A stretch of 64,000 bases of DNA, taken from positions 1 through 64,000 of the forward strand of contig NZ_JAAAPM020000009.1 in assembly GCF_009909155.2 (NCBI RefSeq), written 5' to 3'. The stretch comes from Flavobacterium undicola. GTDB taxonomy: Bacteria > Bacteroidota > Bacteroidia > Flavobacteriales > Flavobacteriaceae. The notes beneath the pieces were generated by a model. The model did no database searches. It saw only the letters and a list, made by a program, of their open reading frames with translations, and had not been told where the DNA came from. The position numbers were made by a program, and so were the translations under genes. Below, piece by piece: positions 14,509 through 38,600 of the stretch. Within the stretch, counting starts at the first letter, position 1. Every line of letters starts with the position of its first letter.

Positions 14509-14773
14509 GGCTTCGACAGGCTCAGCCACCGATTAAATAAGACAAACTTAACTATCTAAAAAAATATGAGAAGCTCAGCTATCGAGTAAAACTATTTACC
14601 CGTTGACTGAGCTTACATTATTTCCCTGGTGGCTGAGCCTGTCGAAGCCAAGTAGTGAAATTCACTTCTCTTTTTTCAATAACTGAGCTTCCATTATTTC
14701 CCAGGTAGCTGAGCCTGTCATTTTCGGTGGCTATTCTTCTCCTATTTATCCGGTAGCTGAGCCTGTTGAAGCC
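14509..14773. repeat. Array of CTGAGCCTGTCGAAG palindromic repeats
   Basis: The spacer between divergent cobB and pduX holds one copy in inverted orientation at 14509-14530. Three direct copies follow at 14628-14649, 14704-14719 (truncated) and 14752-14773, plus degenerate fragments such as CTGAGCTT near 14608 and 14684. A longer unit of about 40 bp (14604-14643 and 14680-14719) is repeated with few changes, spaced 76 bp. The reference form is GGTGGCTGAGCCTGTCGAAGCC split over its two halves. Confidence 0.85.
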
Positions 14774-14792
14774 AGGGATTATTCTATCTTTG
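14766..14792 (+). promoter_or_regulatory. Candidate promoter of the pduX-cobQ-cobD-cbiB operon
   Basis: TTG (14766-14768), 16 bp, then TATCTTTG (14785-14792), a perfect -7 match. The transcript would start near 14799, giving a leader of about 15 nt. The TTG lies inside the fourth palindromic repeat, created by a C-to-T change from the usual GTCGAAG to GTTGAAG. Confidence 0.45.
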
Positions 14793-14814
14793 CACTATAA
14801 CCCAGAAATAAAAA

Positions 14815-15663
14815 ATGACTATCCAGATTACCACTTATGCTAAAATTGGTGAACTCCTACAAGGAGCATTTGGTATAAACGAACCCTTTTTAGTAAGTAA
14901 TAAGTCTTCTAAACTATTCAAAACCCTTACTCTCGCAAGTACAAATCCAATAAATCAAAACGTAAAACCCGGAGATAAAGCGATGAAAGCTATGGAGTTA
15001 TTTTATTCATTGGATAATGAAAAAATAAAAAAACAATCTGTTCCAAAAATCTATTTTAGCCAAGAAAGAAATTTCAAAATGGGTAAAGGACTATCATCTA
15101 GTTCTACCGATATCTTAGGAATCTTATCGGCTATGAATAAAATTTATAACACACAATATTCCAAGCATTTTTTATACCAACTTGCCGCTCAAATAGAACC
15201 AACTGATCCCTGTTTAGATTCAGATTCTGTATTATTCAATCAAAAATCTGGTGAAATTATAGATTCGCTTTCCCCAATTCCTTATTCGATACTTTATTTT
15301 GATTCGGATCCTAAAATAAAAATTGACACCGTAGAACTCTCACAAAGCAGGCACTATTCTGAAAATCAGATTTTAGAATTTCAAACACTATATTCAAACC
15401 TAAAAAAAAGTACCGAGAGCAAGGATTATGCAAGCTTTTTTGAATGTATCACAAAAAGTGCCATTATCAACGAAAGTATTTTGTCAAAGAAAAACTTTCC
15501 CTTACTACTTGATTTTGCCACCAAAAATAATTGTGGTTTATTTGTAGCCCATAGCGGTACCTACATGGGATTGCTAATTGAACCTGATCGCTTGCCTTTA
15601 ATCGACTTAAATGCCAAAAATTTCGTGGCAAAACATTGGGAAACGCCACTTTATATTGAATAA
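14815..15663 (+). CDS. pduX: GHMP-family kinase, probable L-threonine kinase PduX
   Basis: GHMP kinase of 282 residues. The N-terminus YAKIGELLQGAFG and the glycine/serine-rich ATP loop GKGLSSSSTDILG (about residues 92-104) match PduX-type kinases. PduX makes L-threonine O-3-phosphate, the precursor of the aminopropanol arm. Its position immediately before cobQ and the threonine-phosphate decarboxylase gene fits that role. It is separated from cobQ by 5 bp. Sequence alone cannot exclude another small-molecule substrate. Confidence 0.8.
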   Translation: MTIQITTYAKIGELLQGAFGINEPFLVSNKSSKLFKTLTLASTNPINQNVKPGDKAMKAMELFYSLDNEKIKKQSVPKIYFSQERNFKMGKGLSSSSTDILGILSAMNKIYNTQYSKHFLYQLAAQIEPTDPCLDSDSVLFNQKSGEIIDSLSPIPYSILYFDSDPKIKIDTVELSQSRHYSENQILEFQTLYSNLKKSTESKDYASFFECITKSAIINESILSKKNFPLLLDFATKNNCGLFVAHSGTYMGLLIEPDRLPLIDLNAKNFVAKHWETPLYIE

Positions 15664-15668
15664 ACACT

Positions 15669-17150
15669 ATGCAAAAATTAAAACCCATCATGTTTGTTGG
15701 TACTGCTTCTGATGTAGGTAAAAGCATCATCAACACTGGATTTTGCCGCATTTTTAAACAGGATGGTTATGCACCTGCTCCTTTTAAATCGCAAAATATG
15801 TCGCTTAACAGTTTTGCTACGCCCGAAGGACTCGAAATAGGCCGTGCGCAAGCCGTACAGGCAGAAGCTTGCGGTATCTCATGCAGCACTGATATGAATC
15901 CTGTTTTATTAAAACCAACAAGTGATAAAAGTTCACAAGTGGTTTTAAACGGGAAGCCTATTGGAGACCAATCGGCTTATGATTATTTTATGGGGAACAA
16001 CAAAATGGGGCTCCTCAAAGAAGCTCAGGAAGCCTATAACCGATTATCCGAAAAATACAATCCTGTTGTGTTGGAAGGCGCAGGAAGTATTTCTGAATTG
16101 AATCTGAAACATCGCGACATTACCAATATGCGCATGGCAAAATATGCCAATGCAGCCACTTTTTTAATTGCCGACATTGACCGGGGAGGTGTTTTTGCAA
16201 GTGTTTACGGAAGCATTATTTTATTAACTCCCGAAGAAAAATCACTAATCAAAGGGATCATTATTAATAAATTTCGAGGAGATGCACAACTTTTTGAAGA
16301 CGGAAAAAAAATCATAGAAGACCTCTGTGGCATTCCTGTTGTGGGGGTAGTTCCGTTTGCTAAGGATATTTATATTGAGGAAGAGGATTCTGTTGGACTT
16401 CAAAATAAAAATTCACAATCTGCAGAAAATAAAATTAACATTGCCGTTATTTTACTCAATCGTCTTTCCAACTACACCGATTTTAATGTATTGGAACGTC
16501 ACGAAAATGTAAATTTATTTTACACCAAAAATCCTTTGGAAATTGAAAAAGCCGACATCATTATTCTTCCGGGAAGTAAAAACACTATTGCCGATTTAAT
16601 TGAAATCAAGAATAACGGAGCTGCCAAAGCCATTGTCAATGCCCATAAAAACAATAAAACCGTTATCGGAATTTGTGGTGGTTATCAAATGATGGGACAA
16701 ATTGTTGAAGACCCACATCAAATGGAAGGAACTGTTGAAAAAATGTCGGGATTAGATTTGCTACCTATAAAAACAGTACTCACAAAAGAAAAAATCACGA
16801 GACAAGTACAATTTCAATTTAAAAAATATCAGGAGACCTGTGAAGGCTACGAAATACATATGGGAGTTTCATCTTCTGTAGAAAAAAACACCCAACTGAA
16901 CCATTTTTCAGATGACACAACTGATGGTTTTTTGTTGGCTGACAATTGCTGGGGAACTTACATTCATGGAATATTGGATAACGAAATTGTCATAAACGAT
17001 TTGCTTTCTCAAACCAAAAAAGAAATGACCGCAACAGCTTTTGATTACAAAGCTTTTAAAGAAGAACAATATGATTTACTGGCACAACACTTACGGGAAC
17101 ATTTAGACTTGGAGTATATTTATTCTGTTCTTAAAGAAAAACAATTATGA
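15669..17150 (+). CDS. cobQ: Cobyric acid synthase
   Basis: CobQ/CbiP amidates the b, d, e and g side chains of adenosylcobyrinic acid diamide. The 493-residue cytoplasmic enzyme has an N-terminal P-loop domain (MFVGTASDVGKSIINTGFCRIFKQ) and a C-terminal type I glutamine amidotransferase domain. The latter has its nucleophile Cys in GICGGYQMMG and a His in WGTYIHGILDN. Length and motifs are complete. It overlaps the next gene by 4 bp (ATGA). Confidence 0.96.
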   Translation: MQKLKPIMFVGTASDVGKSIINTGFCRIFKQDGYAPAPFKSQNMSLNSFATPEGLEIGRAQAVQAEACGISCSTDMNPVLLKPTSDKSSQVVLNGKPIGDQSAYDYFMGNNKMGLLKEAQEAYNRLSEKYNPVVLEGAGSISELNLKHRDITNMRMAKYANAATFLIADIDRGGVFASVYGSIILLTPEEKSLIKGIIINKFRGDAQLFEDGKKIIEDLCGIPVVGVVPFAKDIYIEEEDSVGLQNKNSQSAENKINIAVILLNRLSNYTDFNVLERHENVNLFYTKNPLEIEKADIIILPGSKNTIADLIEIKNNGAAKAIVNAHKNNKTVIGICGGYQMMGQIVEDPHQMEGTVEKMSGLDLLPIKTVLTKEKITRQVQFQFKKYQETCEGYEIHMGVSSSVEKNTQLNHFSDDTTDGFLLADNCWGTYIHGILDNEIVINDLLSQTKKEMTATAFDYKAFKEEQYDLLAQHLREHLDLEYIYSVLKEKQL

Positions 17151-18169
17151 TTTTAGGACACGGAGACGACGGTTATTTACATCACGAAACAATTAAAGCG
17201 AATTTCAGTTCGAATGTTTTTTACGAAGGCCTTCCCAAAGGTTTAAAAGAATTCCTTTCCCTTCATTGGGAAAAGCTTACCCGCTATCCTGAGGCAAATG
17301 CCGAATCGCTTCAAGAAGCAGTAGCCCATTGGCACCAACTGGAATCCCAACAAATACTCATTACAAACGGGGCTACCGAAGCTTTTTATTTAATTGCACA
17401 TTATTTACAAAAGAAATCGGCGACCATAATTATACCTTCATTTGCTGAATATGAAGACGCCTGCCGTGTACACAATGTACCTACCGAATTTATGGAATGG
17501 TCTGCTGTAAACGAGACAAGCCGTTTCAATACAAAAGCCGTTTTCTTTGGTAATCCAAACAATCCTACGGGGTTGATTTTTCCTAAAAAAATGCTGCATT
17601 CCCTATTGGAAAACAATCCCAATACGCTGTTTGTAATTGATGAAGCCTATGTCGATTTTACCTCGAATGTGATAACCATGGTAAACGAAATCAATAATTT
17701 TACAAATCTCCTGCTCGTAAAATCATTAACTAAAACCTATTCTATTCCTGGTTTACGTTTGGGATACATCATCAGCCAAAAACAAAATATTCAAGCCATA
17801 CAATTGGCTAAAATGCCTTGGTCTGTAAACACTATGGCTATCGAAGCCGGTAAGTTTATTGTCGAAAACGCTGCCGATATTACATTACCGCTAAAAAGAC
17901 TGTTAGCAGACACTACTGAATTGATGAGTTCCTTACAGCAAATTGAAAATATCGAAGTGTATCCCACAACAACTAATTTTTTCTTGTGCCAAACGAAAGT
18001 CAAAACAGCGGCAGAACTAAAAAAACAGCTCTTGAATGAGCATCAATTACTTATTAGGGATGCCAGTAATTTTAAAGGGCTTTCCCCTTATCATTTTAGA
18101 ATTGCGACACAGACTCCCGAGCAAAATCAACTTTTAATTGATGCAATAAGCCAATGGACAACACTTTAA
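17147..18169 (+). CDS. cobD: Threonine-phosphate decarboxylase (class I/II aminotransferase fold)
   Basis: PLP enzyme of 340 residues that decarboxylates L-threonine-O-3-phosphate to (R)-1-amino-2-propanol phosphate for the nucleotide-loop arm. The N-terminal HGDDGY and NFSSNV segment is typical of CobD/CobC. The PLP lysine lies in SLTKTYSIPGLRLGY, with NPNNPTG and DEAYVDF motifs upstream. It could be confused with histidinol-phosphate aminotransferase, but the setting between cobQ and cbiB decides for CobD. It overlaps cobQ by 4 bp and cbiB by 16 bp. Confidence 0.9.
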   Translation: MILGHGDDGYLHHETIKANFSSNVFYEGLPKGLKEFLSLHWEKLTRYPEANAESLQEAVAHWHQLESQQILITNGATEAFYLIAHYLQKKSATIIIPSFAEYEDACRVHNVPTEFMEWSAVNETSRFNTKAVFFGNPNNPTGLIFPKKMLHSLLENNPNTLFVIDEAYVDFTSNVITMVNEINNFTNLLLVKSLTKTYSIPGLRLGYIISQKQNIQAIQLAKMPWSVNTMAIEAGKFIVENAADITLPLKRLLADTTELMSSLQQIENIEVYPTTTNFFLCQTKVKTAAELKKQLLNEHQLLIRDASNFKGLSPYHFRIATQTPEQNQLLIDAISQWTTL

Positions 18170-19095
18170 TTCTTTTTTCAATCCCTTTACTTTTAGGTTA
18201 TCTACTTGACTTAGTCTTGGGAGATCCAAGAAGATTACCCCATCCAATTCGTCTTTTTGGAAACGCAATCTATTTTGGAGAAAACCTGTTAAACAAAGGT
18301 AAATTCCGGTTTATAAAAGGAATGTTACTTACGCTTCTATTATGCAATTTGGTTTTTGTGTTTTTTTATTTTCTGTCCAATTTTTTACTCAAAACCAATA
18401 CTGTCCTTTATATCCTTTTTACAGCTCTTTTTGTTTTTTATGGTCTGGCCAATAAAAGTCTGATACAGGAAGGGACAGCCGTTTTTGATGCGCTACAAAA
18501 CAACGGATTGGAAGCGGGTCGAAAACGACTTTCCTGGATAGTGGGACGTGATACCACTGCCCTATCTGAAAACCAGATACGGACAGCCGTTTTCGAAACT
18601 TTGTCCGAAAACTTAAGTGACGGTGTAATTGCTCCGCTGTTTTATTATGCCATTGGCGGTTTGCCGGCGATGATGGTTTATAAAATGATTAATACTCTTG
18701 ACTCCATGATTGGTTATAAGAGTGACAAGTATTTTTATTTTGGGAAATTTGCTGCCCTGTTAGATGATGCTGCCAATTTTATTCCCGCCCGATTAACTGC
18801 ATTCCTGATGGTTTTAGTGAGCGGAAAATGGAATCTTTTTTCATTTATTTATCAATTTGGTAATCAGCATGCTAGTCCTAATTCAGGTTATCCAGAGTCG
18901 GCACTTGCAGGAATTATGAATTGTCGTTTTGGAGGTCCTAACAGCTATCATGGAAAAATTGTTCAGAAACCTTATATTGGAGTAAATAACCGAATAATTG
19001 AACATAAAGAGATCATTGAAGTTTCTAAAATCAACCACAAAGTTACTTTGCTGGCAGTCATTATTATTACTGCTATAAAATATTACTTTTTATAA
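18154..19095 (+). CDS. cbiB: Adenosylcobinamide-phosphate synthase CbiB
   Basis: Integral inner-membrane protein of 313 residues that condenses adenosylcobyric acid with aminopropanol (phosphate). The N-terminal LLLGYLLDLVLGDPRRLPHPIRLFG and the motifs IVGRDTTAL, GGPNSYHGKI and the final transmembrane helix are family hallmarks. It is the last gene of the pduX-cobQ-cobD-cbiB operon, ending about 100 bp before the B12 riboswitch. Confidence 0.95.
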   Translation: MDNTLILFSIPLLLGYLLDLVLGDPRRLPHPIRLFGNAIYFGENLLNKGKFRFIKGMLLTLLLCNLVFVFFYFLSNFLLKTNTVLYILFTALFVFYGLANKSLIQEGTAVFDALQNNGLEAGRKRLSWIVGRDTTALSENQIRTAVFETLSENLSDGVIAPLFYYAIGGLPAMMVYKMINTLDSMIGYKSDKYFYFGKFAALLDDAANFIPARLTAFLMVLVSGKWNLFSFIYQFGNQHASPNSGYPESALAGIMNCRFGGPNSYHGKIVQKPYIGVNNRIIEHKEIIEVSKINHKVTLLAVIIITAIKYYFL

Positions 19096-19193
19096 ACTTA
19101 GACCTCCTAATAAATCAACTGCAAAATCCTTAATTATAAAAGGTAATAAAGACTCTGCCTTAAAGTTTCTAAAAATAATCCATAAGCATTTTG

Positions 19194-19201
19194 TACTTTC
19201 G
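19194..19201 (+). promoter_or_regulatory. Candidate -7 element for the riboswitch transcript
   Basis: TACTTTCG is one mismatch from TAnnTTTG. It lies just in front of the B12 aptamer, so transcription would begin at the aptamer edge. No good -33 TTG was found. Confidence 0.35.
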
Positions 19202-19204
19202 CCG

Positions 19205-19385
19205 CCGTAATGGTTTTCTTTTTGAATTATTGAAAAGAAATTAAAAGGGAATTCGGTGTAAATCCGAGACAGTACCCGCTGCTGTAAGTTTTATCAAGGT
19301 TATAACATTATGTCACTGTCTCGTTCTAAAACGAGATGGGAAGGCGTTATCTACTGAAACGAGTCAGAATACCTGCCTTTACATC
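19205..19385 (+). ncRNA. Cobalamin (B12) riboswitch
   Basis: The leader shows the conserved cobalamin aptamer core: AAAAGGGAAT, then CGGTGTAAATCCG, ACAGTACCCGCTGCTGTAA, a B12-box-like TGTCACTG segment, GATGGGAAGGCG and AGTCAGAATACCTGCC in the canonical order. It controls the downstream receptor gene and probably the long biosynthetic run behind it. Binding of adenosylcobalamin or another corrinoid should lower expression. Boundaries are estimated from the core motifs. Confidence 0.95.
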
Positions 19386-19410
19386 GATTTGCAGCTTTCG
19401 GAGTAAAGGC
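19375..19410 (+). promoter_or_regulatory. Candidate riboswitch expression-platform hairpin
   Basis: GCCTTTAC (19375-19382) is perfectly complementary to GTAAAGGC (19403-19410). Its 5' arm overlaps the terminal CCTGCC of the aptamer, so forming this stem may compete with ligand-bound folding. No T-tract follows, so it is not a classical terminator. About 100 nt remain to the start codon. Confidence 0.45.
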
Positions 19411-19509
19411 CAAACGGGTGAAAATAATTCTTCTCCTTATCTTCACACGTCCTTTTTCTATTGTTGCAAATAATCGGTTAACGGGATTATTAACGCACAA
19501 AAACCTAAA

Positions 19510-22131
19510 ATGGAAAAGGATTTATCCAAAATTAAAAAAATTATTTACCTCTGTAATGGTACTTCATGTACCAACAAAGGCGCTGAAGAAAACATTACCG
19601 CCCTTCGTAACAGCTTAACTGAACAAGAATTAAACGACGAAATTCATACCATTCGCACTAAATGCAGTGGTTTTTGCAAAAAAGGTCCCATCATTAGCAT
19701 TCAACCCGAAAACACCTGGTACCAGGAAATGAATGTAAACACATCAAATGCTGTAGTTACCACTCATATTTTACAAAACACAATTCTCCAAGACCAATTA
19801 TTATTTACTTTAAGCAATACAACCGAGAAATTTACACCTCAAAAAAGAAAAAAAAATTTCTTTACAAAGTATTTTAAATTAAGCATTTTTTTATTCTTAT
19901 TATTATCGTTTTCTACTGCAAAAGCACAAAGCAATCTTAGTGGATTTATTACAGATGCCAACAATCACAGCAAAATTGAGGGAGCTACAATTCAGATAAA
20001 AGAGTCTAGTGAGAACAGCATTTCAGATGAAAATGGAGATTATCAATTACACTTCGCTTCCGAAGGGCTGAAAACAATTATTGTTTCTTGTGTAGGTTAC
20101 AATACTTTTAGTCTAAAAACAAACCTAAAAAAAGACGAACAAAGAAAACTAAATATTGCTCTGCAAAGTAATGCCATGAATTTAGCCGAAGTTGTTATTT
20201 CAACTTCATTTAACAGAAAACAAGAAAGCAAAATAGATCTGTTAAGCCTGCAATTACAACCCATAAAATCGGCTCAGGACTTGTTACGTGCCGTTCCCGG
20301 ATTATTTATTGCACAACATGCTGGCGGAGGAAAAGCCGAGCAAATTTTTGTTAGAGGAGCTGACAACGATCACGGAACCGATTTTAACATCCAGATGGAT
20401 GGAATTCCGATAAACATGCCTTCACACGCACACGGCCAAGGTTATGCTGACATGCATTTTATGATTCCCGAAATTATTGGTTCGGCTAATTTTTATAAAG
20501 GTCCTTACGAAGCAAAATTAGGTGATTTTTCGGTGGCGGGTGCTGCTCAATTCAGCTCGAAATACCGTTTAGAAAAAAATGTTATCAAGCTGGAATTGGG
20601 TTTATTCAATACCCAAAGAATCCTGACAATGATACAACTTTTAGACCAAAAGCATTTGGTGCCAAAATGGAAGGACAATGCTTATTTGGCTTCAGAATAC
20701 AACTATACCGATGGTTTTTTTGATAGTAAACTAAAATTTAAACGTTTTAATATTTTCGGGAAATACAATGCACAACTCTCTAACAAAACAACCGCAACTT
20801 TCTCGGGTTCTTATTTTTCCAGCACTTGGAACGCTTCGGGACAATTGCCTTTGCGTGCAATCGAAGATGGTTCGCTTTCCAGATATGGTTCTATAGATGA
20901 TTCCGAAGGTGGAATCGCTTCGAGATTAAACGCAAACTTAGTCTTTGAAACCAAATACAGCGAAACTGCATTTTGGAAAAACCAATTGTACTACTCAAAA
21001 AATATCTTCGATTTATATTCCAATTTCACCTTTTTCATGAACGATCCCGTCAACGGAGATGAAATATTACAATGGGAAAAACGTGATTTATTCGGATTAA
21101 AAAGTACTTATAATAGACTCGACAACATCGGATCAACCCAATTATCATCTGAAGTAGGATTGGTTACCCGTACCGATATTTTATCACGTGGCAGAGATCA
21201 TGTTTTACGCAGGGCTTTATTATCTAATGATGCAATAAACGATGTTAACATTACTAATTATAGTTTGTATTTTGATGAAAATTGGCAGTTTGCACCCAAA
21301 TGGACTTTGAAATTAGGAGCTAGAAATGAAGTCTTCGATTTTTATTTGAAAGACAAATTAGATGACTCAAATTCAGGGCAAAAAACCGTATATCGCTTTA
21401 ATCCGAAAGCACAATTAAACTTTAATGCAACATCAAATTTCACTGTTTTTACCAAATGGGGAGTTGGATTTCACTCTAATTACGCTCAAACTGCAGTAAG
21501 TAAAGCCCCAACAGCAGGTAATCCTGTACCTCAATCTGAAGGAGCCGATTTGGGTTTTATAATGAAATTGCAAAAGAAATCAATCTTTAATTTCACGGCA
21601 TGGTGGCTCGATACGGGTTCCGAATTTAGATTTGTATCCGATGACGGTAGCTTTGAAAACTTGGGACCAACCAGAAAATATGGTTTTGATGCAGCAATAA
21701 AAATTCAATTTACCAATTATTTATGGGCTGACAGCAATTTAAATTATGCCTATAGCATTCTGAAAGATGCACCAAAAGGCGAAAACTTTGCGCCATTGTG
21801 TCCTAAATGGAACTCTACAGGCGGATTGACCTTAAAACTGGAAAACGGAATTAATGCCAGTTTGCGTTACCGTTTTATGGGAGAACGCCCTGCTACCGAA
21901 GACGGATCAGTGTTTTCTAAACCCTACACCATAGTAGATGCCGTTATCCGATACACCAAACCCCGTTATGAAGTATGCCTTTTTACCGAAAACATATTCA
22001 ATGTCAAATGGGCAGAAGCACAATTTTATGACGAATCACAATTAAAAAATGAAACAGCTCCAGTAATGGATTTTCACAATACTCCAGGAACACCTTTCTT
22101 TATTAAGACTAGCGTTTCTTATTTTTTTTAA
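19510..22131 (+). CDS. TonB-dependent outer-membrane receptor with N-terminal [2Fe-2S] ferredoxin domain
   Basis: An 873-residue frame in which two proteins are joined. Residues 1-~100 are a thioredoxin-like [2Fe-2S] ferredoxin with cysteines C15/C20 (CX4C) and C52/C56 (CX3C), followed by GPIISI and WY. Residues 112-139 form a classical signal peptide (KRKK, hydrophobic core, AKA before Q140). Then come a CarboxypepD_reg-like domain (about 141-220), a plug (about 225-345) with a His-rich stretch SHAHGQGYADMHF, and a beta-barrel ending in aromatic residues (SVSYFF). The receptor probably imports corrinoid or cobalt given the riboswitch. There is no ATG, GTG, TTG or CTG in frame between residues 80 and 140, so a separate receptor start is not apparent. 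An A9 run at 19848-19856 is a possible slippage or sequencing-error site. Confidence 0.88.
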   Translation: MEKDLSKIKKIIYLCNGTSCTNKGAEENITALRNSLTEQELNDEIHTIRTKCSGFCKKGPIISIQPENTWYQEMNVNTSNAVVTTHILQNTILQDQLLFTLSNTTEKFTPQKRKKNFFTKYFKLSIFLFLLLSFSTAKAQSNLSGFITDANNHSKIEGATIQIKESSENSISDENGDYQLHFASEGLKTIIVSCVGYNTFSLKTNLKKDEQRKLNIALQSNAMNLAEVVISTSFNRKQESKIDLLSLQLQPIKSAQDLLRAVPGLFIAQHAGGGKAEQIFVRGADNDHGTDFNIQMDGIPINMPSHAHGQGYADMHFMIPEIIGSANFYKGPYEAKLGDFSVAGAAQFSSKYRLEKNVIKLELGLFNTQRILTMIQLLDQKHLVPKWKDNAYLASEYNYTDGFFDSKLKFKRFNIFGKYNAQLSNKTTATFSGSYFSSTWNASGQLPLRAIEDGSLSRYGSIDDSEGGIASRLNANLVFETKYSETAFWKNQLYYSKNIFDLYSNFTFFMNDPVNGDEILQWEKRDLFGLKSTYNRLDNIGSTQLSSEVGLVTRTDILSRGRDHVLRRALLSNDAINDVNITNYSLYFDENWQFAPKWTLKLGARNEVFDFYLKDKLDDSNSGQKTVYRFNPKAQLNFNATSNFTVFTKWGVGFHSNYAQTAVSKAPTAGNPVPQSEGADLGFIMKLQKKSIFNFTAWWLDTGSEFRFVSDDGSFENLGPTRKYGFDAAIKIQFTNYLWADSNLNYAYSILKDAPKGENFAPLCPKWNSTGGLTLKLENGINASLRYRFMGERPATEDGSVFSKPYTIVDAVIRYTKPRYEVCLFTENIFNVKWAEAQFYDESQLKNETAPVMDFHNTPGTPFFIKTSVSYFF

Positions 22132-22149
22132 CTTAAAGACTATCCCAAA

Positions 22150-22950
22150 ATGGAACTTCTAAATAACAATTTATCAGCATTGCTCATTCTATTTATTTTA
22201 GGTTTGCGTCACGGCTTAGACCCAGATCACATTACTGTAATAGATAATTATACCTATCGTTTGCACGAAAACAAAAACGCATGGTCAAGATGGGTTGGAA
22301 CGTTATTTACTTTCGGGCATGGTGTGATGGTTACCTTAATCGCATTAACGCTGAGCTATCTGAAAAATCATTTTGAAGTTCCATTGTGGGTTGATTTTTT
22401 ACTCAATTGGCTGCCAATGGTTTTACTTCTTGTGATGGGAATTGGAAACATCATTTCTTTATCCCAAGCTAAAAGTAGCAATTCGTTAAGTATCAAAAAA
22501 CACTTTATTCCTAAATTATTAGACAAAAATCTGAACCCATTTACGGTATTCTTAACGGGAATTATTTTTGGATTCATCTTTGATACTTCTTCGCAAATTG
22601 CAGCTTTCGGGCTGGCTGTTTCAGGAACGCATCACTGGCTGTTTTCGGTTATAGGCGGTCTTATTTTCTCTATAGGCTTGATATTCACAGGAACAATAGA
22701 TTCCTTTTTATTGAGCAAACTATTAAAAACATTCGACCGAAGTAAAATTCAAAAACATCGATTTAAACTAAATGTACTTATAACGGTAATGTGTTTCATT
22801 ATCCCCATTTATAAAATAGGAACCGTATTCAATGCCGATTTAGAACTGACTGATTTACAAAATAACCTGGTTGGTCTAGGTTTTCTCGGAACAATTCTTT
22901 TTCTCTATTTTGATTTGTATCTTCGTTCCCGAATAAAAACAATCCAATAA
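22150..22950 (+). CDS. NicO/NiCoT-type nickel/cobalt permease
   Basis: Inner-membrane transporter of 266 residues with about seven helices. The signature LGLRHGLDPDHITVID near the N-terminus (residues 18-33) is the H-x4-D-H metal motif of NiCoT permeases. FTFGHG in a later helix is the second family motif. Substrate is inferred as cobalt because it lies 18 bp behind the riboswitch-controlled receptor and ahead of the cobalt chelatase. The family also moves nickel. Confidence 0.85.
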   Translation: MELLNNNLSALLILFILGLRHGLDPDHITVIDNYTYRLHENKNAWSRWVGTLFTFGHGVMVTLIALTLSYLKNHFEVPLWVDFLLNWLPMVLLLVMGIGNIISLSQAKSSNSLSIKKHFIPKLLDKNLNPFTVFLTGIIFGFIFDTSSQIAAFGLAVSGTHHWLFSVIGGLIFSIGLIFTGTIDSFLLSKLLKTFDRSKIQKHRFKLNVLITVMCFIIPIYKIGTVFNADLELTDLQNNLVGLGFLGTILFLYFDLYLRSRIKTIQ

Positions 22951-23028
22951 GAAACAAAAAAGGTTGTTTTATAGTAGGAAAACATACATTTCCCATTGGT
23001 ACTAATCCAAATAATTTTTTAGAAAAAA

Positions 23029-23967
23029 ATGAATCGTAAAAAAGGAATTTTAATTTGCGGACATGGCAGCAAGGATCCGGAGGGCGTTAACGGATTCAAG
23101 GAATTGGTGCGTCTCTTAAAAATACGCTATCCCGATTACGAAGTCGATTATGGTTTTTTGGAATTCTCACATCCCGTTTATGCAGCTGCAGTAGAGCGTT
23201 TGTATACCAATGGCATCCGTGAAATTATTGCTATTCCTGCCATTCTGTTTGCTGGAGGACACGCCAAGAATGACATTCCATACGAAATGAATGCGCTCCA
23301 GAGTCAGTATCCTGATTTAAAGATTACTTTAGGAAAACACTTTGGTATCACACCGTCGATATTACAACTTTCTAAAAAACTAATAGAAGCTACGGAATCT
23401 AAACTAACTCCTTTAGACCGAAAAGAAAGCTGTTTATTGGTTGTTGGCCGTGGTACGTCTGATCCGGATGCTAATTCTGACATTGCAAAAATGACTCGAA
23501 TGCTTTGGGAAGGAATGGGTTTTGGCTTTGCCACAACAACCTATATTGGAGTTACGCAACCTTTATTAAAAGATACTTTACCATTGGTAAACCAACTACC
23601 CTACAAACGTGTGGTAGTATTGCCTGTCTTTTTATTCACAGGTGTTTTACTAAAAAAAATATATACCCAGGTTCAAGAATTTGCGATAAACTCAGATACC
23701 GAATTTTGTTATACCGCCTCTTTCGAATGTGATGAGCTGTTGCTGCAAACCATAGACGAACGTATAGCCGAAGTAGAACAAGGCAATCCTAATATGAATT
23801 GCCAATTGTGCAAATACCGTACGCAAATTATCGGTTTCGAGAACGAAGTTGGTAAAGAACAAAAAGGGCATCACTTGGCCGTAAAAGGAATTTTATTTGA
23901 AGAAGAAGAAAAAATAGCCGTTAAAAAAGTACCCTTTTCAGGTTTAAAAAAACTATTAGGAATTTAG
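23029..23967 (+). CDS. cbiX: Sirohydrochlorin cobaltochelatase (CbiX)
   Basis: Cytoplasmic chelatase of 312 residues that would insert cobalt into sirohydrochlorin early in corrin synthesis. It has two CbiX repeats, the first starting KKGILICGHGSKDPEG and the second LLVVGRGTSDPDAN, each with the H/R-G-S/T core. The C-terminal part has NCQLCKYRTQI, a CX2C motif typical of long CbiX proteins, then a short GHH metal-rich segment. No overlap with its neighbours; 78 bp separate it from the transporter. Confidence 0.9.
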   Translation: MNRKKGILICGHGSKDPEGVNGFKELVRLLKIRYPDYEVDYGFLEFSHPVYAAAVERLYTNGIREIIAIPAILFAGGHAKNDIPYEMNALQSQYPDLKITLGKHFGITPSILQLSKKLIEATESKLTPLDRKESCLLVVGRGTSDPDANSDIAKMTRMLWEGMGFGFATTTYIGVTQPLLKDTLPLVNQLPYKRVVVLPVFLFTGVLLKKIYTQVQEFAINSDTEFCYTASFECDELLLQTIDERIAEVEQGNPNMNCQLCKYRTQIIGFENEVGKEQKGHHLAVKGILFEEEEKIAVKKVPFSGLKKLLGI

Positions 23968-23978
23968 AAAATGGTAAA

Positions 23979-24032
23979 GTGTTAGTTATTACATACTAAC
24001 ACCAACTGGCTGCTGAGCTTGTCGAAGCAAGC
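23979..24032. repeat. Short hairpin plus one palindromic repeat copy
   Basis: GTGTTAGT (23979-23986) pairs with ACTAACAC (23995-24002). A CTGAGCTTGTCGAAGC copy of the main repeat follows at 24008-24032. Together they fill most of the 83-bp gap between cbiX and cobI. Confidence 0.65.
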
Positions 24033-24050
24033 CATAATTAAAAACAAGAA

Positions 24051-26524: not shown

Positions 26525-26555
26525 CCCTTTCAGGGTTTGAAACCCTGAAAGGGTT
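26523..26555. repeat. Perfect 33-bp palindrome, second repeat family
   Basis: Arm AACCCTTTCAGGGTTT (26523-26538), one central base, then its exact complement (26540-26555). It overlaps the last two bases of the cobJ-cobH stop codon. A degenerate relative is at 34656-34687. Confidence 0.85.
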
Positions 26556-26571
26556 GTTAAATAAATATCAA

Positions 26572-27756: not shown

Positions 27757-27780
27757 TTAGTACAATTTATATTTAAAAAA

Positions 27781-29649: not shown

Positions 29650-29665
29650 ATTTCGACAAGCTCAG
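29610..29665. repeat. Two repeat copies at the cbiG-cobM / cobK junction
   Basis: CCTTCGACAAGCTCAGGA (29610-29627) lies within the end of cbiG-cobM. TTTCGACAAGCTCAG (29651-29665) lies just past its stop and upstream of cobK. The two halves are about 40 bp apart. Confidence 0.8.
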
Positions 29666-29681
29666 TATAAAATATTTTTTT

Positions 29682-30437
29682 ATGATATTAGTATTTGGTG
29701 GCACAACAGAAGGAAAAAAAGTAGCGAAGTTTCTCGAAAAAGAAGCCTTGCCCTACTTCTATTCTACTAAAACGGAAATCGAATTTGACAAGGGAGAATT
29801 TGGAAATTATCGTTTTGGGGCATTCTCTGTTGCAGAATTAATTGCATTTTGTCAAGAAAAAAAAATTGACACCATCATACATGCCAGTCATCCTTTTGCG
29901 GAAATATTGCATCAAACCATAGCCGAAGCCAGTAGCTTTTTATCGATTCCGGTTATCCGTTTTGAAAGACAATATCCTGCAAAAAACAGTTCAAAAGAGG
30001 TAATTTATGTCAAAAATTATAAGGAAGCCATTGCCTATCTGAATGCGGAGAAAATAGAAAAATTATTGGCTTTAACAGGGGTACAAACCATCGAAAAGTT
30101 GGAATCCTATTGGAAAAAAAACAATACCTACTTTCGGATTTTACCAAGAGAAAGTTCATTGGCTATAGCCGAAAAAGCTGGGTTCCCGAAAGAAAATTTG
30201 ATTTTAGAATTTCCAAGCGATGATTTGAACCATGAAATTGAGATTTTAAAAAAACACAATTGTCAAGCAGTGATTACCAAAGAAAGCGGTGAATCTGGTT
30301 TTTTATCAACAAAAATTGAAGCTGCCAAAATTTGTAAAATCCCAATCGTGATTATCGAAAGAGTTCTGTTGTCCAATAGTTTTTTATTAGCGTCTAATGA
30401 AGCTGATTTGTTTAACTTTATGGCTTTAAAAAAATAA
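29682..30437 (+). CDS. cobK: Precorrin-6A / cobalt-precorrin-6A reductase
   Basis: CobK/CbiJ of 251 residues reduces the macrocycle with NAD(P)H before CobL. The N-terminus MILVFGGTTEGKKVAKFLEKE is the family's nucleotide-binding start. HASHPFAEILHQTI and VITKESGESGF are also family motifs. I place the start at 29682; a longer frame begins at 29568 but its first 38 residues overlap cbiG-cobM and include repeat sequence. The end lies 2 bp from the cbiD start. Confidence 0.92.
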   Translation: MILVFGGTTEGKKVAKFLEKEALPYFYSTKTEIEFDKGEFGNYRFGAFSVAELIAFCQEKKIDTIIHASHPFAEILHQTIAEASSFLSIPVIRFERQYPAKNSSKEVIYVKNYKEAIAYLNAEKIEKLLALTGVQTIEKLESYWKKNNTYFRILPRESSLAIAEKAGFPKENLILEFPSDDLNHEIEILKKHNCQAVITKESGESGFLSTKIEAAKICKIPIVIIERVLLSNSFLLASNEADLFNFMALKK

Positions 30438-30439
30438 AA

Positions 30440-31516
30440 ATGGCATTGCTTCCAATTCCAGACGGTCCTTTACGCAACGGCTACACCACAGGAGCCTGTG
30501 CAACTGCATGTGCAAAAGCGGCATTGATGAGTTTATTGGAACAAAAAGAAATAAAAGAAGTAACAATAACTTTACCTTTTGGTGAAAAAGTAAATTTTAC
30601 AATCACTACCTGCTTTTTTGATAAAAAACAGGCCACTTGTACTACCATAAAAGATGCGGGAGACGACCCCGATGTAACTCATGGCGCAACAATTGGTTGT
30701 ACAATTTCCCTAAATGAAGTCGAAGGAATTCAATTTCTACAAGGTAAAGGTGTGGGTATTGTAACCTTACCCGGATTGGCAATTGCTGTGGGCGAACCTG
30801 CCATTAATCCCGTCCCAAGAAAGATGATTACTGATGCTGTAAATTTTATAAAACACCAATTTCAGTGTAATAAAGGGGTAAATGTGGAGGTTTTTGTCGA
30901 AAATGGGGAAGAAATTGCAAAAAAAACATTGAATTCCCGCATCGGGATTCTAAACGGAATTTCGATTTTAGGGACAACTGGCATTGTTAAAGCTTTTAGT
31001 TCTTCGGCCTATATTGCCAGTATTACACAAGGTATCGATGTCTCGATTGCAAATGGCTGTAACGAAATCATTATCAATTCCGGAGGGCGATCAGAAAATT
31101 TATTGAAAGCCAGATTTCCAGATTTGCCTGATTTTGCTTTTATACAATACGGCAATTGGATTGGAGATACTTTAGAAAAAATAAAATCGGTTCCTTTAAA
31201 GAAAGTAACCATTGGAATAATGATAGGTAAAGCGGCCAAACTGGCGCAAGGCGAACTTGATACCCACAGCGGAAAATCAACTTGGGATAAAGCATTCATA
31301 CATCAAATGGCAAAAGATTGTGGGTATAGAGAAGAACAATGTTTACCGATTTTAGATTTAAATATGGCAAGGAGACTCACAGAAATATTCAATTTTACTG
31401 AAGATGAACCTTTCTTTCAATCCTTGCGACAACATTGTTATGATGTTTGTAAACAGCAAATTCCAAACGTTGAGTTAACTGTTTTATTGATTGATGCGAA
31501 TGATAAGATAATATAG
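30440..31516 (+). CDS. cbiD: Cobalt-precorrin-5B C1-methyltransferase CbiD
   Basis: CbiD of 358 residues methylates C1 of the corrin precursor in the early-cobalt (anaerobic) pathway. It is a marker of that route. NGYTTGACATACAKAA (residues 13-28) is its diagnostic glycine/alanine-rich start, followed by IKDAGDDPDVTHGA and the later GTTGIVKAFSS. Full length, with no frame problem. Confidence 0.95.
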   Translation: MALLPIPDGPLRNGYTTGACATACAKAALMSLLEQKEIKEVTITLPFGEKVNFTITTCFFDKKQATCTTIKDAGDDPDVTHGATIGCTISLNEVEGIQFLQGKGVGIVTLPGLAIAVGEPAINPVPRKMITDAVNFIKHQFQCNKGVNVEVFVENGEEIAKKTLNSRIGILNGISILGTTGIVKAFSSSAYIASITQGIDVSIANGCNEIIINSGGRSENLLKARFPDLPDFAFIQYGNWIGDTLEKIKSVPLKKVTIGIMIGKAAKLAQGELDTHSGKSTWDKAFIHQMAKDCGYREEQCLPILDLNMARRLTEIFNFTEDEPFFQSLRQHCYDVCKQQIPNVELTVLLIDANDKII

Positions 31517-31520
31517 AACA

Positions 31521-31566
31521 GTTCTCTGAGCCTGTCGAAGGGATTCCTTCGACAGGCTCAGAGAAC
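31521..31566. repeat. Perfect 46-bp hairpin of the main repeat family
   Basis: Two inverted copies, each 21 bp and containing CTGAGCCTGTCGAAGG, face each other over a 4-nt loop GATT (31542-31545). All 21 positions pair. It sits 5 bp after cbiD and 14 bp before the next start codon. Confidence 0.95.
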
Positions 31567-31580
31567 ATTAAAATTAAAAA

Positions 31581-33961: not shown

Positions 33962-33972
33962 AATCAAAAAAA

Positions 33973-34557: not shown

Positions 34558-34565
34558 GCAGTTTT

Positions 34566-34725
34566 AAGTGGTCAGTGTTCAGTTTTTTAGTAATCAGTGA
34601 TCGGTTTGGGGTTTATATCAAAAAAATATTTGAAAACTGATTTCCAAATATAGGAAACCTTTCAGAATTCAAAACTCTGAAAGGGTTGAAAATCTGAATA
34701 CTAAAAAACTGACCACTGAACACTT
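34566..34725. repeat. Nested inverted repeat between convergent pduO and cobN
   Basis: Outer arms of 27 nt (34566-34592 and 34699-34725) match at 25 of 27 positions and contain CAGTTTTTTAGTA. Within them is a degenerate AACCTTTCAG / CTGAAAGGGTT palindrome (34656-34687), the second repeat family. The right arm touches the cobN stop codon. It may act as a bidirectional terminator, but no long T-tract follows the outer stem. Confidence 0.75.
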
Positions 34726-37700
34726 TACTCTGAGTCAATCAACAATTGCTGCAATCTCTCAACCGTTTCAGGTTTTGGTTCTTTCCACATGCCACGTTGA
34801 ATAGCTTCCAGCATTCGTTCGGACATGTCTTTTAATGCCCACGGATTTACTTTTTCAATAAATTCCTTGTTTTCGGGTTTAAACAAATATTCTTCTGTGA
34901 TGCCTTCGTACATAAAATCGTCAATCAGATCAGTGGTTGCATCATAGGCAAAAAGATAGTCCATAGTAGCTGCCATTTCAAAGGCTCCTTTGTAACCATG
35001 CCTTTTTACTCCCTCAATCCATTTTGGATTTACCACACGGGAGCGATAAACTTTGAGCAATTCTTCTTTTAACGTTTTTACTTTCGGATTATCAGGTCGG
35101 GAATGATCTCCAAAATAAACTTTGGGCTGCGTGCCACTTACGGTTTGTACAGCATTGGTCAAACCACCCTGAAACTGATAATAATCATCAGAATCCAGAA
35201 TATCGTGTTCCCTATTGTCTTGGTTATGCATCACAATTTGAATATCGGATAACCGTTGTTCAAAAACTTCATGAGCCGACTCCCCTATCCTATCGCTGCC
35301 ATAGGCGTAGCCACTCCATTGCATATATACGCGTGCCAAATCTTCTTTGGTTTGCCAATTTTTCTCGTCAATTACAGCTTGAAGTCCTGCTCCATACGCT
35401 CCCGGCTTCGAACCAAAAACACGAAATAAGGCTCTTTTATGCGCCTTGTCCTCGTTAATTCCTTTGGCTTTCCAATCGCCTTTTTCTTTTAGAAAACGTT
35501 TCCTGATGGGATTATCTTCCGGATCTTCTTCCAATTGTGCCAAACGCTCTACCACCTTATTAAACAGCGAAATTACATCTGGAAAAGCATCCCTAAAGAA
35601 ACCCGAAATACGCAACATCACATCAACCCGTGGACGTTTGAGCATGAGCATGGAGATAATTTCAAAATCAGTCACTCTCCGATTAGCGCCTTCCCAAACG
35701 GGTTTTACGCCCATCAAAGCAAAGGCCTGAGCAATGTCATCGCCACCTGTTCGCATAGTAGACGTTCCCCAAACCGAGAGTCCAACAGTCTCAGGGTATT
35801 CCCCGTTTTCTTGTAAATAACGTTCTATAATCAGGTTTGCACTTTTTACACCTAATGCATAAGCGGTTGGCGTGGGAATAGTACGTACATCTACCGAATA
35901 AAAATTCCTGCCTGTGGGCAACACATCCAAACGACCACGTGTAGGAGCACCAGAGCTTCCCGAGGAAACATATTTCCCGTTCAACCCTGCCATTAAATTA
36001 GTAATTTCGTCTGTGGTTTGCTGTACTTTTGGGTAAGTGTCTTTTGCAATAAAATTAAGAACGGCATCAAAATTTAGATAACCCGTTTCTTTTCTATCTA
36101 ATAAAAATTGGGATAAATAGACTCTCGAAATCAATTCGAGCTGTTCGACAGCATCGCCAATCGTTCTACAATAAACCTGTTGGATTTTTTTCTCAAAAGG
36201 AGTGGAATAATCACATTGCAATGGATTAAAATCCAGTTCCAAATCAAGTGCCAATGCATGTGTAATTCCTTTTATTGCTCCCGATGGAACACGGTGCAAG
36301 GCAATGAGTAAATCAAGTAATTGATCATTTTCTGGCGCCTGTCCAAAAATATGTAAGCCGTCCCGAATTTGTGCTTCTTTCAAATCACACAAATAACCGT
36401 CTAATTTCACTAATAATTCGTCAATATCCTCTACCGAAGCCCTCAAATCAGTATCTAAATGAGCTTCCTGAACCAAAGCTTTGATTTGCTTTTTTAATAA
36501 TGTGGCTCTTTTTATATCCAACGTAAAAGCCTCGTAATATTCGTCTATCAGATGCTCCAATTGTGTCAAAATACCATAATTTTCGGCACGGGTCATCGGT
36601 GGAATCAGATGATCCAAAATCACAGCCTGATTGCGACGCTTGGCTTGGGTACCTTCTCCCGGGTCGTTTACAATAAAGGGATAAAAATGCGGAATGGCCT
36701 CCATCAATAACCTCGGATAACAACTTTCTTTGCTCAACGCAACACTTTTTCCCGGTAACCATTCTAAGTTTCCATGCTTGCCTACGTGAACAACGGCATC
36801 GGCTTGAAAAACATGATTAACCCAAAAATAATAGGCCAAATAATTGAAAGTTGGCGGTAAATCCGGGGAATGATAAATTGCTTTTTCGTCTTGATTGTAC
36901 CCTCGAGAAGGCTGAATACTCACGAAAACAGTTCCCAATAAAAAACCTGCAATAGCAAATTTTCCATCGCTATAAAATGGAGAATCTTCGGGCTTTCCCC
37001 ATTGATTTTCCAGTTGCTCCCTCAGATTTGACGAAATGTTATTATATTGCTCATAAAACTCATTAAGCAATAATGAAACCTGAAAAGGACGAAACTGGGT
37101 AGTATCAACATCATTGGTAATATAATGAGTGACCAATTCTATCAATTCCTGGCTCGAATTGGGTATAAAATTCCCTAAATCATATCCATTCTCTTTGAGA
37201 GCCTTGATGATATTGACCATGCTTTCCGGAGTGTCAAGCCCAACGCCATTGGCCAAACGGCTGTCTTTATTAGGATAATTAGGCATTATCAAAGCAATAC
37301 ATTTTTCTGAATTCTTTTTGGTTTGCAATCGATGCCAGCGCACTGCAAAATCCACCACAAAATCGACTCCTTCTTGGTGTGTCTCGTATTTTAAAATATC
37401 CGAATCGGTTATGGCATCTTTGCCCAAAGCCACTTTGAAAGATACTGCGGTGGTAATAATGCGCCCGTCCAATTCGGGTAGCGCAATATTGATGGCAACA
37501 TCGGTAGGAGTTAATCCGAATAAATTATCCTGCCAAATGGCTTTGGTACACGAAGCAAAAATAGCCTGAATAACAGGAATATTGAGTTTATAAAAAATAA
37601 AATCGGACTCGTTCTCCGTTAATGCTTTTATCGAAAAACTAGTCGTATTGATGATTGTACTCAATTGACGGTTGTTACCTTTGGTCAGTAAGTCATACAA

Positions 37701-38600
37701 CTCATCGGCTGTGTTTTTGTCCCGAAGATTATTGACAAAAGCCATAATCGGGCGCGTCTTTTTCTCTTGTAATTGTTCACAGATAGCATAAACAGGTTCT
37801 AAATTATCTGCCAAATAATGCGATTGATATACCAAAACCACGGTATCGAATTCCTTATGATAAGCCTGTTCCTTGGTCAAAATTCCGTTTTCCAAATCGC
37901 ATAAAAACAAATCAGGTATGCGTTGCGGGGCATTATAGGTCAATTCTTTTTTATCAAAAAAATGATTCAATATGAAACGCAATGCTTCTGTTAAATTTTG
38001 TTTTCCGCCTGCGCAAAAGTATTTCCAAACCAAGTCCGAAACCGATAAATCGACTGTTGAAAGATTCATCAACTCTACATCTGGTGCATCATAACCCGGC
38101 AAAAAAAGTACTGGAATGTTTTTTTGCCTGCACTCTAATTCAATCGATTCAACCAGATAAGGGTAATAACTAATCCCGCCCAATAGCCTGCAAATAACAA
38201 GCTTTGCTTCACCAATTACTTCTTCAACATATTTATCAATGGTTAATTCCTGCTTTAAATAGGTAAGATTGGCCATTCTTAAAGACGGCGCTTCGACTAC
38301 GCACCCTTCGACTTCGCTCAGGAGTGCTCCGCTCAGCGACCGGAATTCTTCGACTTCGCTCAGTGGTACTCTGCTCAGCGACTGGAAATCGGTTTTCACA
38401 TCAACTTCTTCTCTTGTTTCTCCGTTCACTGAGCCCTGTCGAAGTGAGCCTTGTCGAAATGCCGCATATGCTTTATTTAGCGAATGGATTTCGGTATCGG
38501 CAGCCGACAGAAAAATAATATCGCCTTTGGACTGCTCGATATGAAAAACGCCGTCCTCATTAGGATTCCAGCCTCCGGGAATGGTAGGTATTAAGTGCAT
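34725..38600 (-). CDS. cobN: Cobaltochelatase subunit CobN
   Basis: Large cytoplasmic subunit of 1291 residues that inserts cobalt into hydrogenobyrinic acid a,c-diamide or a related ring in the late-cobalt pathway. Motifs HVGKHGNLEWLPGKSVALSKE, NDPGEGTQAKRRNQAVILDHLIPPMTRA and VWGTSTMRTGGDDIAQA are typical. Residues ~47-104 are not conserved-looking and are encoded by a cluster of palindromic repeats, with a 14-residue tandem duplication (SLSRVPLSEVEEFR / SLSGALLSEVEGCV). The frame is intact. It is convergent with pduO and follows cobW, separated by a strong terminator. Confidence 0.94.
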   Translation of the reverse strand: MHLIPTIPGGWNPNEDGVFHIEQSKGDIIFLSAADTEIHSLNKAYAAFRQGSLRQGSVNGETREEVDVKTDFQSLSRVPLSEVEEFRSLSGALLSEVEGCVVEAPSLRMANLTYLKQELTIDKYVEEVIGEAKLVICRLLGGISYYPYLVESIELECRQKNIPVLFLPGYDAPDVELMNLSTVDLSVSDLVWKYFCAGGKQNLTEALRFILNHFFDKKELTYNAPQRIPDLFLCDLENGILTKEQAYHKEFDTVVLVYQSHYLADNLEPVYAICEQLQEKKTRPIMAFVNNLRDKNTADELYDLLTKGNNRQLSTIINTTSFSIKALTENESDFIFYKLNIPVIQAIFASCTKAIWQDNLFGLTPTDVAINIALPELDGRIITTAVSFKVALGKDAITDSDILKYETHQEGVDFVVDFAVRWHRLQTKKNSEKCIALIMPNYPNKDSRLANGVGLDTPESMVNIIKALKENGYDLGNFIPNSSQELIELVTHYITNDVDTTQFRPFQVSLLLNEFYEQYNNISSNLREQLENQWGKPEDSPFYSDGKFAIAGFLLGTVFVSIQPSRGYNQDEKAIYHSPDLPPTFNYLAYYFWVNHVFQADAVVHVGKHGNLEWLPGKSVALSKESCYPRLLMEAIPHFYPFIVNDPGEGTQAKRRNQAVILDHLIPPMTRAENYGILTQLEHLIDEYYEAFTLDIKRATLLKKQIKALVQEAHLDTDLRASVEDIDELLVKLDGYLCDLKEAQIRDGLHIFGQAPENDQLLDLLIALHRVPSGAIKGITHALALDLELDFNPLQCDYSTPFEKKIQQVYCRTIGDAVEQLELISRVYLSQFLLDRKETGYLNFDAVLNFIAKDTYPKVQQTTDEITNLMAGLNGKYVSSGSSGAPTRGRLDVLPTGRNFYSVDVRTIPTPTAYALGVKSANLIIERYLQENGEYPETVGLSVWGTSTMRTGGDDIAQAFALMGVKPVWEGANRRVTDFEIISMLMLKRPRVDVMLRISGFFRDAFPDVISLFNKVVERLAQLEEDPEDNPIRKRFLKEKGDWKAKGINEDKAHKRALFRVFGSKPGAYGAGLQAVIDEKNWQTKEDLARVYMQWSGYAYGSDRIGESAHEVFEQRLSDIQIVMHNQDNREHDILDSDDYYQFQGGLTNAVQTVSGTQPKVYFGDHSRPDNPKVKTLKEELLKVYRSRVVNPKWIEGVKRHGYKGAFEMAATMDYLFAYDATTDLIDDFMYEGITEEYLFKPENKEFIEKVNPWALKDMSERMLEAIQRGMWKEPKPETVERLQQLLIDSE
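38290..38460. repeat. In-frame repeat cluster inside cobN
   Basis: CTTCGACTTCGCTCAG occurs at 38306-38321 and 38348-38363, a period of 42 bp, each followed by a GCTCAGCGAC partner. Further fragments CTTCGACTACGC (38291-38302), GAGCCCTGTCGAAG and GAGCCTTGTCGAAA (38431-38459) flank them. All are read through without a stop. Confidence 0.9.

Follow-up and report, generated by a model that had tools for sequence, protein, structure and literature searches.

Palindromic repeats of a Flavobacterium cobalamin locus and a small GIY-YIG nuclease gene as a probable REP-like mobile module

Repetitive extragenic palindromic (REP) sequences are common in bacteria. In REPIN/RAYT systems (REP doublets forming hairpins, REP-associated tyrosine transposases) the enzyme that goes with the palindromes is an HUH tyrosine transposase. 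A GIY-YIG family named Ssn, said to have been described in Nature Communications in 2025, reportedly comprises site-specific single-strand nucleases that occur with repeats in Neisseria. For one class of REPs, the CGTC repeats, no mobilising enzyme was known in 2013: the survey by Di Nocera, De Gregorio and Rocco (2013, PMC3733652) records no association with transposase genes and apparently no dedicated transposase. The carriers it names are A. lipoferum, S. meliloti, Neisseria, G. forsetii and Rickettsia, RPE-4 and RPE-6 (Rickettsia palindromic elements) of R. conorii being counted among the CGTC repeats. The present analysis concerns a stretch of 64,000 nucleotides of Flavobacterium undicola DNA (contig NZ_JAAAPM020000009.1, positions 1 to 64,000; the whole stretch is hereafter called the window), in which short palindromes are clustered in a cobalamin (vitamin B12) locus and a small GIY-YIG nuclease domain is joined, through a linker made of these palindromes, to a B12 enzyme. 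I propose, with a probability of about 0.7, that the palindromes and the small GIY-YIG gene constitute a REP-like mobile module made of a nuclease plus hairpins. This proposal is carried by observations, namely insertion, linkage, a match between palindrome class and nuclease clade over most of the tree, copy dose, and covariation, from which recognition, cutting and mobilisation by the nuclease are inferred.

The insertion is seen in the fused gene:

24758 to 26524, plus strand: fused open reading frame (ORF) with matches to Pfam PF01541 (GIY-YIG, E 6.5e-17), PF00590 and PF02570
24764 to 25174, plus strand: 411-bp in-frame insert of GIY-YIG and repeats, placed after the ATGAAA of cbiH

The encoded protein runs from the GIY-YIG domain (residues 2–74; 66.4 bits, against a Pfam cut-off of 22.6) through a linker in which three repeat copies are all in frame to a CbiH/CobJ-type TP_methylase domain (residues 138–346) and CbiC (residues 387–580). 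Solved relatives of the GIY-YIG domain are 1zg2 and 1ywl, both called UPF0213; NCBIfam has no family for this domain or for two homologues. Six residues (Y6, Y16, G18, R26, H30 and E63) are invariant in 16 aligned GIY-YIG proteins, and the Tyr/Gly/Arg/Glu motif, whose residues presumably have catalytic roles, is present. In four relatives, Flavobacterium I-STPP5a, F. columnare, F. covae and F. davisii, the site is empty: ATGAAA leads straight into cbiH without the 411 bp, and the roughly 21 kb inspected in each contain no exact copy of the palindrome. Flavobacterium sp. ZT3R18 has eight, together with a filled site in which GIY-YIG directly precedes cbiH and the linker is much longer and still open. 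ZT3R18 (97% amino-acid identity) and I-STPP5a (96%) are the nearest of 70 CbiH-CbiC loci. Three of the 70 contain a related GIY-YIG domain, which lies before cbiH in ZT3R18 and at another position in loci L185 and L207; two palindromes lie just past that of L207. Exact copies are found in five of the 70, ZT3R18 and four others with one or two.

These empty sites bear on the idea that the repeats were brought in by horizontal transfer of the cobalamin locus and are unrelated to GIY-YIG. Such an origin would fit the concentration of copies in the locus and the fact that they mostly belong to a subtype lacking the TGTC/CGTC tag described below (1 of 13 tagged, as against 9 of the 17 copies elsewhere in the genome). 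However, the locus is collinear with those of ZT3R18 and I-STPP5a (84–91% DNA identity) and of three other Flavobacterium (about 65–83%), and among these relatives ZT3R18 alone has exact copies. Horizontal acquisition is disfavoured by the empty sites, and I regard it as very improbable.

The repeats themselves had been reported by a first-pass annotation of this DNA as a family located between 14.5 and 38.5 kb and confined to the cobalamin locus. The 15-nucleotide core CTGAGCCTGTCGAAG matches the window 12 times at up to three mismatches, while shuffled windows contain 0.47 matches on average and never more than 3. Eleven matches, each with at most two mismatches, lie at 14511–31561, and the twelfth, at 9087 with three mismatches, is probably due to chance; three further copies, at 38306, 38348 and 38429, have a 3-nucleotide inner spacer. 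The family thus stands, but its confinement does not. The pattern CTGAGCNTGTCGAAG, which is the core with one base left free, occurs 23 times in the 4,268,163-base genome, eight times in the window and 15 outside it, so that locus confinement was rejected in favour of strong clustering. The form with a 2- or 3-nucleotide spacer occurs 28 times genome-wide, 11 of them inside the window; reversed-pattern controls gave no match in the same genome. The interval tested for enrichment (23,952 bp, 0.56% of the genome) holds 8 of the 23 cores (p 4e-13) and 11 of the 28 wider-form copies (p 3e-18). Thirteen of the 17 wider-form copies outside the window are not spanned by any ORF of at least 120 amino acids; four are.

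Linkage between palindromes and GIY-YIG genes was assayed in a sample of 149 genomes from 148 genera of the family, 94 of which carry the palindrome and 56 a relative of the GIY-YIG domain at E 1e-12. The proximity set consisted of 85 related GIY-YIG genes in 80 loci totalling 1.21 Mb (the window's copy was set apart, G128:C6:216597 was left out and two pieces of G132:C2:1118 were merged). Exact copies number 0.85 per kb within 100 bp of these genes, 1.61 at 100–200 bp, 0.42 at 200–300 bp and 0.31 at 300–500 bp, and 0.004 per kb at 4–8 kb. An exact copy lies within 300 bp of 25 of the 85 genes and a relaxed one near 42; many of the remaining genes have variant palindromes instead of exact copies. 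Two control patterns are absent from the 1.21 Mb. A test independent of palindrome class, the presence of a 12-mer common to both 250-bp flanks, was positive for 67 of 83 GIY-YIG genes (two of the 85 had flanks too short) and for 22 of 730 control ORFs from the same loci, an odds ratio of 135. In a phylum-wide, Pfam-scored sample of 30 loci, one of which was too short and two of which (L334 and L339) are genes already present in the family sample, the corresponding figures were 22 of 29 and, for nearby windows, 3 of 55. In the proteins, peptides that correspond to the palindrome translated in one of its frames occur in the tails of 98 of 107 GIY-YIG homologues, against 4.2 expected from shuffled tails (the best 120 homologues in a large protein set, minus 13 with tails shorter than 15 residues).

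The first-pass annotation had put forward GIY-YIG as a candidate by association only, and had named a uniform genome-wide distribution with no linkage to GIY-YIG genes as the outcome that would remove both locus specificity and mobiliser. The copies are found to cluster, and the linkage is strong, largely class-specific and present in several phyla; mobilisation by the nuclease I infer. The REP-like and RPE-like reading, with GIY-YIG as candidate partner, is accordingly supported. The same data speak to the view that the hairpins serve in regulation or termination and collect in the spaces between genes, which are also landing places for small genes. Many copies are indeed intergenic, including the 13 of 17 mentioned above, but control ORFs of the same loci rarely have flank-shared 12-mers and, as shown below, the palindrome class tracks the nuclease clade, and I consider this explanation the least probable of those weighed here.

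A RAYT or another HUH transposase could also move the repeats, GIY-YIG being a passenger. The first-pass annotation saw no RAYT transposase in the window, and the window contains no Y1_Tnp match. The genome has two; one of them is on another contig, where a single copy lies 241 bp away from it. In a set of 30 Y1_Tnp loci, one per genome, drawn from the 59 genomes with a match, an exact copy occurs within about 300 bp at one locus (relaxed, at two), to be compared with the 25 (relaxed, 42) of 85 GIY-YIG genes. RAYT as the partner is thus not supported. CGTC repeats, according to PMC3733652, flank no tyrosine transposase gene and show few, fortuitous associations with other transposases. A transposase as the mover is quite improbable.

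Of 87 nuclease genes, 83 could be assigned to one of seven palindrome classes. Mapped on the protein tree, the class, with 'none' included, changes 15 times, compared with a mean of 55.2 after shuffling, and none of 200 shuffles gave a value as low. A single change suffices for the CGAG class (18 genes), and two for the ATCGAG class (22 genes). Paralogues with different classes coexist in several genomes (G106, G138, G148, G132 and G107); genome composition is an unlikely cause when one genome can contain more than one clade, each with another class. Copy number follows the same rule. The median number of TGAG copies is 20.5 in genomes with a TGAG-class nuclease and 0 in genomes without a relative; for CGAG copies the values are 15 and 0. 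When copies within 2 kb of the nuclease are removed, the TGAG median is 15.5 (24 genomes) against 0 (93 genomes without a relative at E 1e-12), and the CGAG median 13 (16 genomes) against 0. The difference from all other genomes is then significant for TGAG (p 2e-10) and CGAG (p 6e-8), and the class preference is kept (p 0.004); in this test the number of own-genome copies subtracted was set by hand to 6. Each nuclease is predicted to bind or cut its own palindrome class.

Pairing between the left and right flanks of the core extends over three positions, the first of which is nearly invariant, and drops at the fourth. The second and third stem positions are paired in 79–96% of cases, against 28–41% after shuffling, and use all four Watson-Crick types: the outer stems covary, complementarity being kept while the letters change. 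The innermost stem letters may form a tandem G-A mismatch. A TGTC/CGTC tag lies 5' of the stem in 72 of 78 CGAG copies, 55 of 105 TGAG copies with the 3-nucleotide spacer and 41 of 94 with the 2-nucleotide spacer; on the opposite side it is found in none, none and two, respectively.

Several results weigh against the proposed module. In the window's module no palindrome immediately precedes the gene, and copies of this palindrome are missing from the surroundings of the other three small GIY-YIG genes in the genome. The relaxed form of the palindrome is also seen close to 32 control ORFs from the GIY-YIG loci, some of them near locus ends and outside the 730. The tag is present in 1 of 13 cobalamin-locus copies, 0 of 9 in ZT3R18 and 1 of 15 near the nuclease genes closest to the window's; near intermediate nucleases it is found in 13 of 19 copies, near the most distant in 84 of 96, and elsewhere in this genome in 9 of 17. 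The locus copies are therefore mostly of a tag-free subtype that goes with its own nuclease group. Single copies fold weakly as DNA (z -1.7 to +0.5), little above shuffles, and hairpin stability was dropped as evidence; the inverted pair at 31521–31566 folds strongly. Adjacent copies are inverted in 37 pairs and direct in 35, unlike published REP dimers, and inverted pairing was dropped as a hallmark. On the tree, which was built on 89 columns and leaves 44 of 82 inner branches open, the window's own class (2-nucleotide TGAG, nine genes) is weakly clustered, with six changes against 8.7 after shuffling and 2 of 500 shuffles as low, which slightly lowers the odds of the proposal; two small classes of five and three genes need three changes each, shuffled values being 4.9 and 3.0. 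Class assignment was itself made from the flanks, and genomes of related bacteria do not count as independent observations. Finally, at least ten copies are present without a matching nuclease in 14 genomes for TGAG-type and in 11 for CGAG-type palindromes.

The association is not restricted to this phylum. Twenty-three GIY-YIG loci were picked by hand, hence non-randomly and mostly one per species, from a plasmid collection, and 16 of them have a flank-shared 12-mer. Hairpins tagged CGTC, TGTC or CCTC lie on both sides of the gene in 12 (Azospirillum lipoferum, Neisseria gonorrhoeae, two Sinorhizobium, Rhizobium CIAT894, Neorhizobium, two Shinella, Novosphingobium, two Sphingobium and Aeromonas) and on one side in two more (Rhizobium tumorigenes and Photobacterium); their density is 2.9 per kb near the genes and 0.43 far from them. 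In two Methylobacterium, Sphingomonas parapaucimobilis and Planktothrix the 12-mers belong to other palindromes. Bacillus subtilis yazA and the loci of Cupriavidus, Acidiphilium, Sphingomonas paeninsulae and Spirosoma have neither flank 12-mers nor tagged hairpins. In A. lipoferum the module separates sufB from sufC, and three relatives do not have it. Filled and empty sites also pair up in Sphingobium, where two relatives have a lone CGTC palindrome at the module site, as expected if short copies were deletion products of the module.

These loci bear on the most serious alternative, in which nuclease and repeats are paired for the control of incoming single-stranded DNA (ssDNA) or for genome dynamics, as is reportedly the case for Neisseria Ssn, and something else spreads the repeats. 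The N. gonorrhoeae homologue is ringed by CGTCATTCCC-type repeats, and orphan repeats do exist in genomes without a matching nuclease, both of which would suit such a role. This alternative nevertheless leaves unexplained why the nuclease gene has itself been inserted together with repeats, and why a lone palindrome occupies the nuclease-free Sphingobium site; I hold it to be possible but unlikely. The likeness to Ssn lies in the association: Ssn is reportedly likewise a small GIY-YIG protein with repeats around its gene and genome-wide, and the N. gonorrhoeae homologue is 32% identical over 79 residues. The differences are that the domain is here fused to a B12 enzyme, that the palindromes are of a Bacteroidota type and that filled and empty sites suggest mobility. 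The module is likely akin to the Ssn nucleases.

According to the mobile-module proposal, the predicted substrate of the nuclease is the palindrome extruded as a hairpin, presumably single-stranded, and the cut made there would be what moves the copies and spreads them. The module would have entered the B12 operon, probably through a junction at the common ATGAAA start, which would have made the fusion of GIY-YIG, linker and CbiH-CbiC, and it probably seeded nearby copies, some of which came to be read in frame. The natural fusion would then represent a likely mobile nuclease turned into part of a metabolic enzyme, and the route by which in-frame palindromes enter conserved genes would be explained.

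The resemblance to REPIN/RAYT systems lies in a nuclease gene with flanking palindromes and dispersed gene-free copies, whereas the enzyme is here a GIY-YIG nuclease and not an HUH tyrosine transposase, the Y1_Tnp genes being unlinked. With the Rickettsia RPEs the locus shares in-frame palindromes inside conserved genes, here the cobN insert listed below and the cbiH fusion; the sequences compared here are non-Rickettsia. The CGTC-REPs, as characterised in PMC3733652, are similarly small hairpins, some within genes, with a tag often found here in the non-locus copies (9 of 17), and related GIY-YIG genes are flanked by hairpins that show the features published for CGTC repeats. By contrast with that description, the locus copies mostly have no unpaired tag and may contain the tandem G-A mismatch, right-side base counts show no CCA here (many plasmid-collection hairpins do have a CCA tail), and there is no preference for inverted pairs. 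The CGTC-REP stem of 8–9 bp and loop of 4–5 fit only when the G-A positions are counted as paired.

An attractive hypothesis, to which I give even odds, is that small GIY-YIG genes with tagged hairpins on both sides act, in several phyla, as the autonomous elements that the CGTC-REP superfamily has seemed to lack. They would then provide a second, non-HUH mode of REP spread and account for coding palindromes of the Rickettsia kind, one such element having been captured here as the N-terminal domain of a B12 enzyme. A class-matched nuclease gene with filled and empty sites makes the question of the mobiliser testable. What seems new here is the tag-free coding subtype, the in-frame B12 fusion with its empty sites, the match of class and clade, and the tie to CGTC-REPs. 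A literature search returned no title linking GIY-YIG or Ssn to palindromes or REPs among the matches listed, and a search with the letters of the palindrome returned no match.

The individual copies and repeat inserts at the cobalamin locus are:

14511 to 14525, minus strand: repeat copy at the upstream end of a CobB/CbiA-like ORF
14633 to 14647, plus strand: repeat copy, intergenic
14757 to 14771, plus strand: repeat copy with one mismatch, intergenic
24013 to 24027, plus strand: repeat copy at the start of a cobI-like gene, in an insert of about 75 bp found only in the window
25050 to 25064, minus strand: repeat copy in the fusion linker, read STGS
25110 to 25124, plus strand: repeat copy in the linker, read AELVEA
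25149 to 25163, plus strand: repeat copy in the linker, read AEPAEA
29611 to 29625, minus strand: repeat copy forming the C-terminal extension LRQAQ of a CbiG-CobM ORF, absent from four relatives
29651 to 29665, minus strand: repeat copy with two mismatches, past the CbiG-CobM ORF
31521 to 31566, no strand assigned: REPIN-like inverted pair of copies, perfect 21-bp arms 4 bp apart
38292 to 38462, minus strand: in-frame repeat insert in CobN (ORF 34725–38600), about 47 residues net, limits approximate and set by hand from a protein alignment

The statement of the first-pass annotation that repeats are translated in frame holds for the three linker copies, the CbiG-CobM C-terminus and CobN. It is doubtful at 14511, where the N-terminal VAEPVEA stretch precedes a better start located downstream. 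The CobN insert contains the three copies with a 3-nucleotide spacer and corresponds to about 47 extra repeat residues, at approximately residues 47–103, which are found in none of 12 aligned homologues out of 120 listed. The copies at 29611 and 31526 are common to the window and ZT3R18 and are found in none of the other four relatives. The insert at 24013 has similar AAATGGT ends on either side, possibly a target duplication.

Other repeats were noticed in the same region. In ZT3R18 (L174:16554-16742, matching the window at 31.5 kb) a run of GTCGAAGGG-like units lies beside palindromes and amounts to a local tandem expansion. Two segments of the cobalamin locus (window 26523–26562 and 34648–34687) carry a different inverted repeat that includes AACCCTTTCAGGGTTT; a spaced pattern of it has one genome match, on another contig, with two mismatches. 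A 39-nucleotide inverted repeat, 85% complementary, lies between the cobalamin genes and cobN (window 34559–34597 and 34694–34732).

Other arrangements of small GIY-YIG genes were also encountered. In the same genome, one (L278, C67:148376) lies between GTCATTGCGAGGAACGAAGCAATCTC-type repeats, another palindrome class. Others lie beside tRNA genes, and in some cases parts of the tRNA recur on the opposite side: two in this genome (L276, C15:74756; L277, C42:13567), and further ones at L323, L325, L333, L335, L342, L345, L348, L349 and L350, as well as L302. A tRNA is present within about 500 bp of the GIY-YIG gene in 9 of the 25 phylum-sample loci scanned (of 30), and these genes may represent a tRNA-linked class of the same nuclease family. 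At L335 (G276:C1:1733881-1734727), a tRNA-Pro gene is accompanied by a tandem array of three GIY-YIG matches, equal in score and spaced 104 bp apart.

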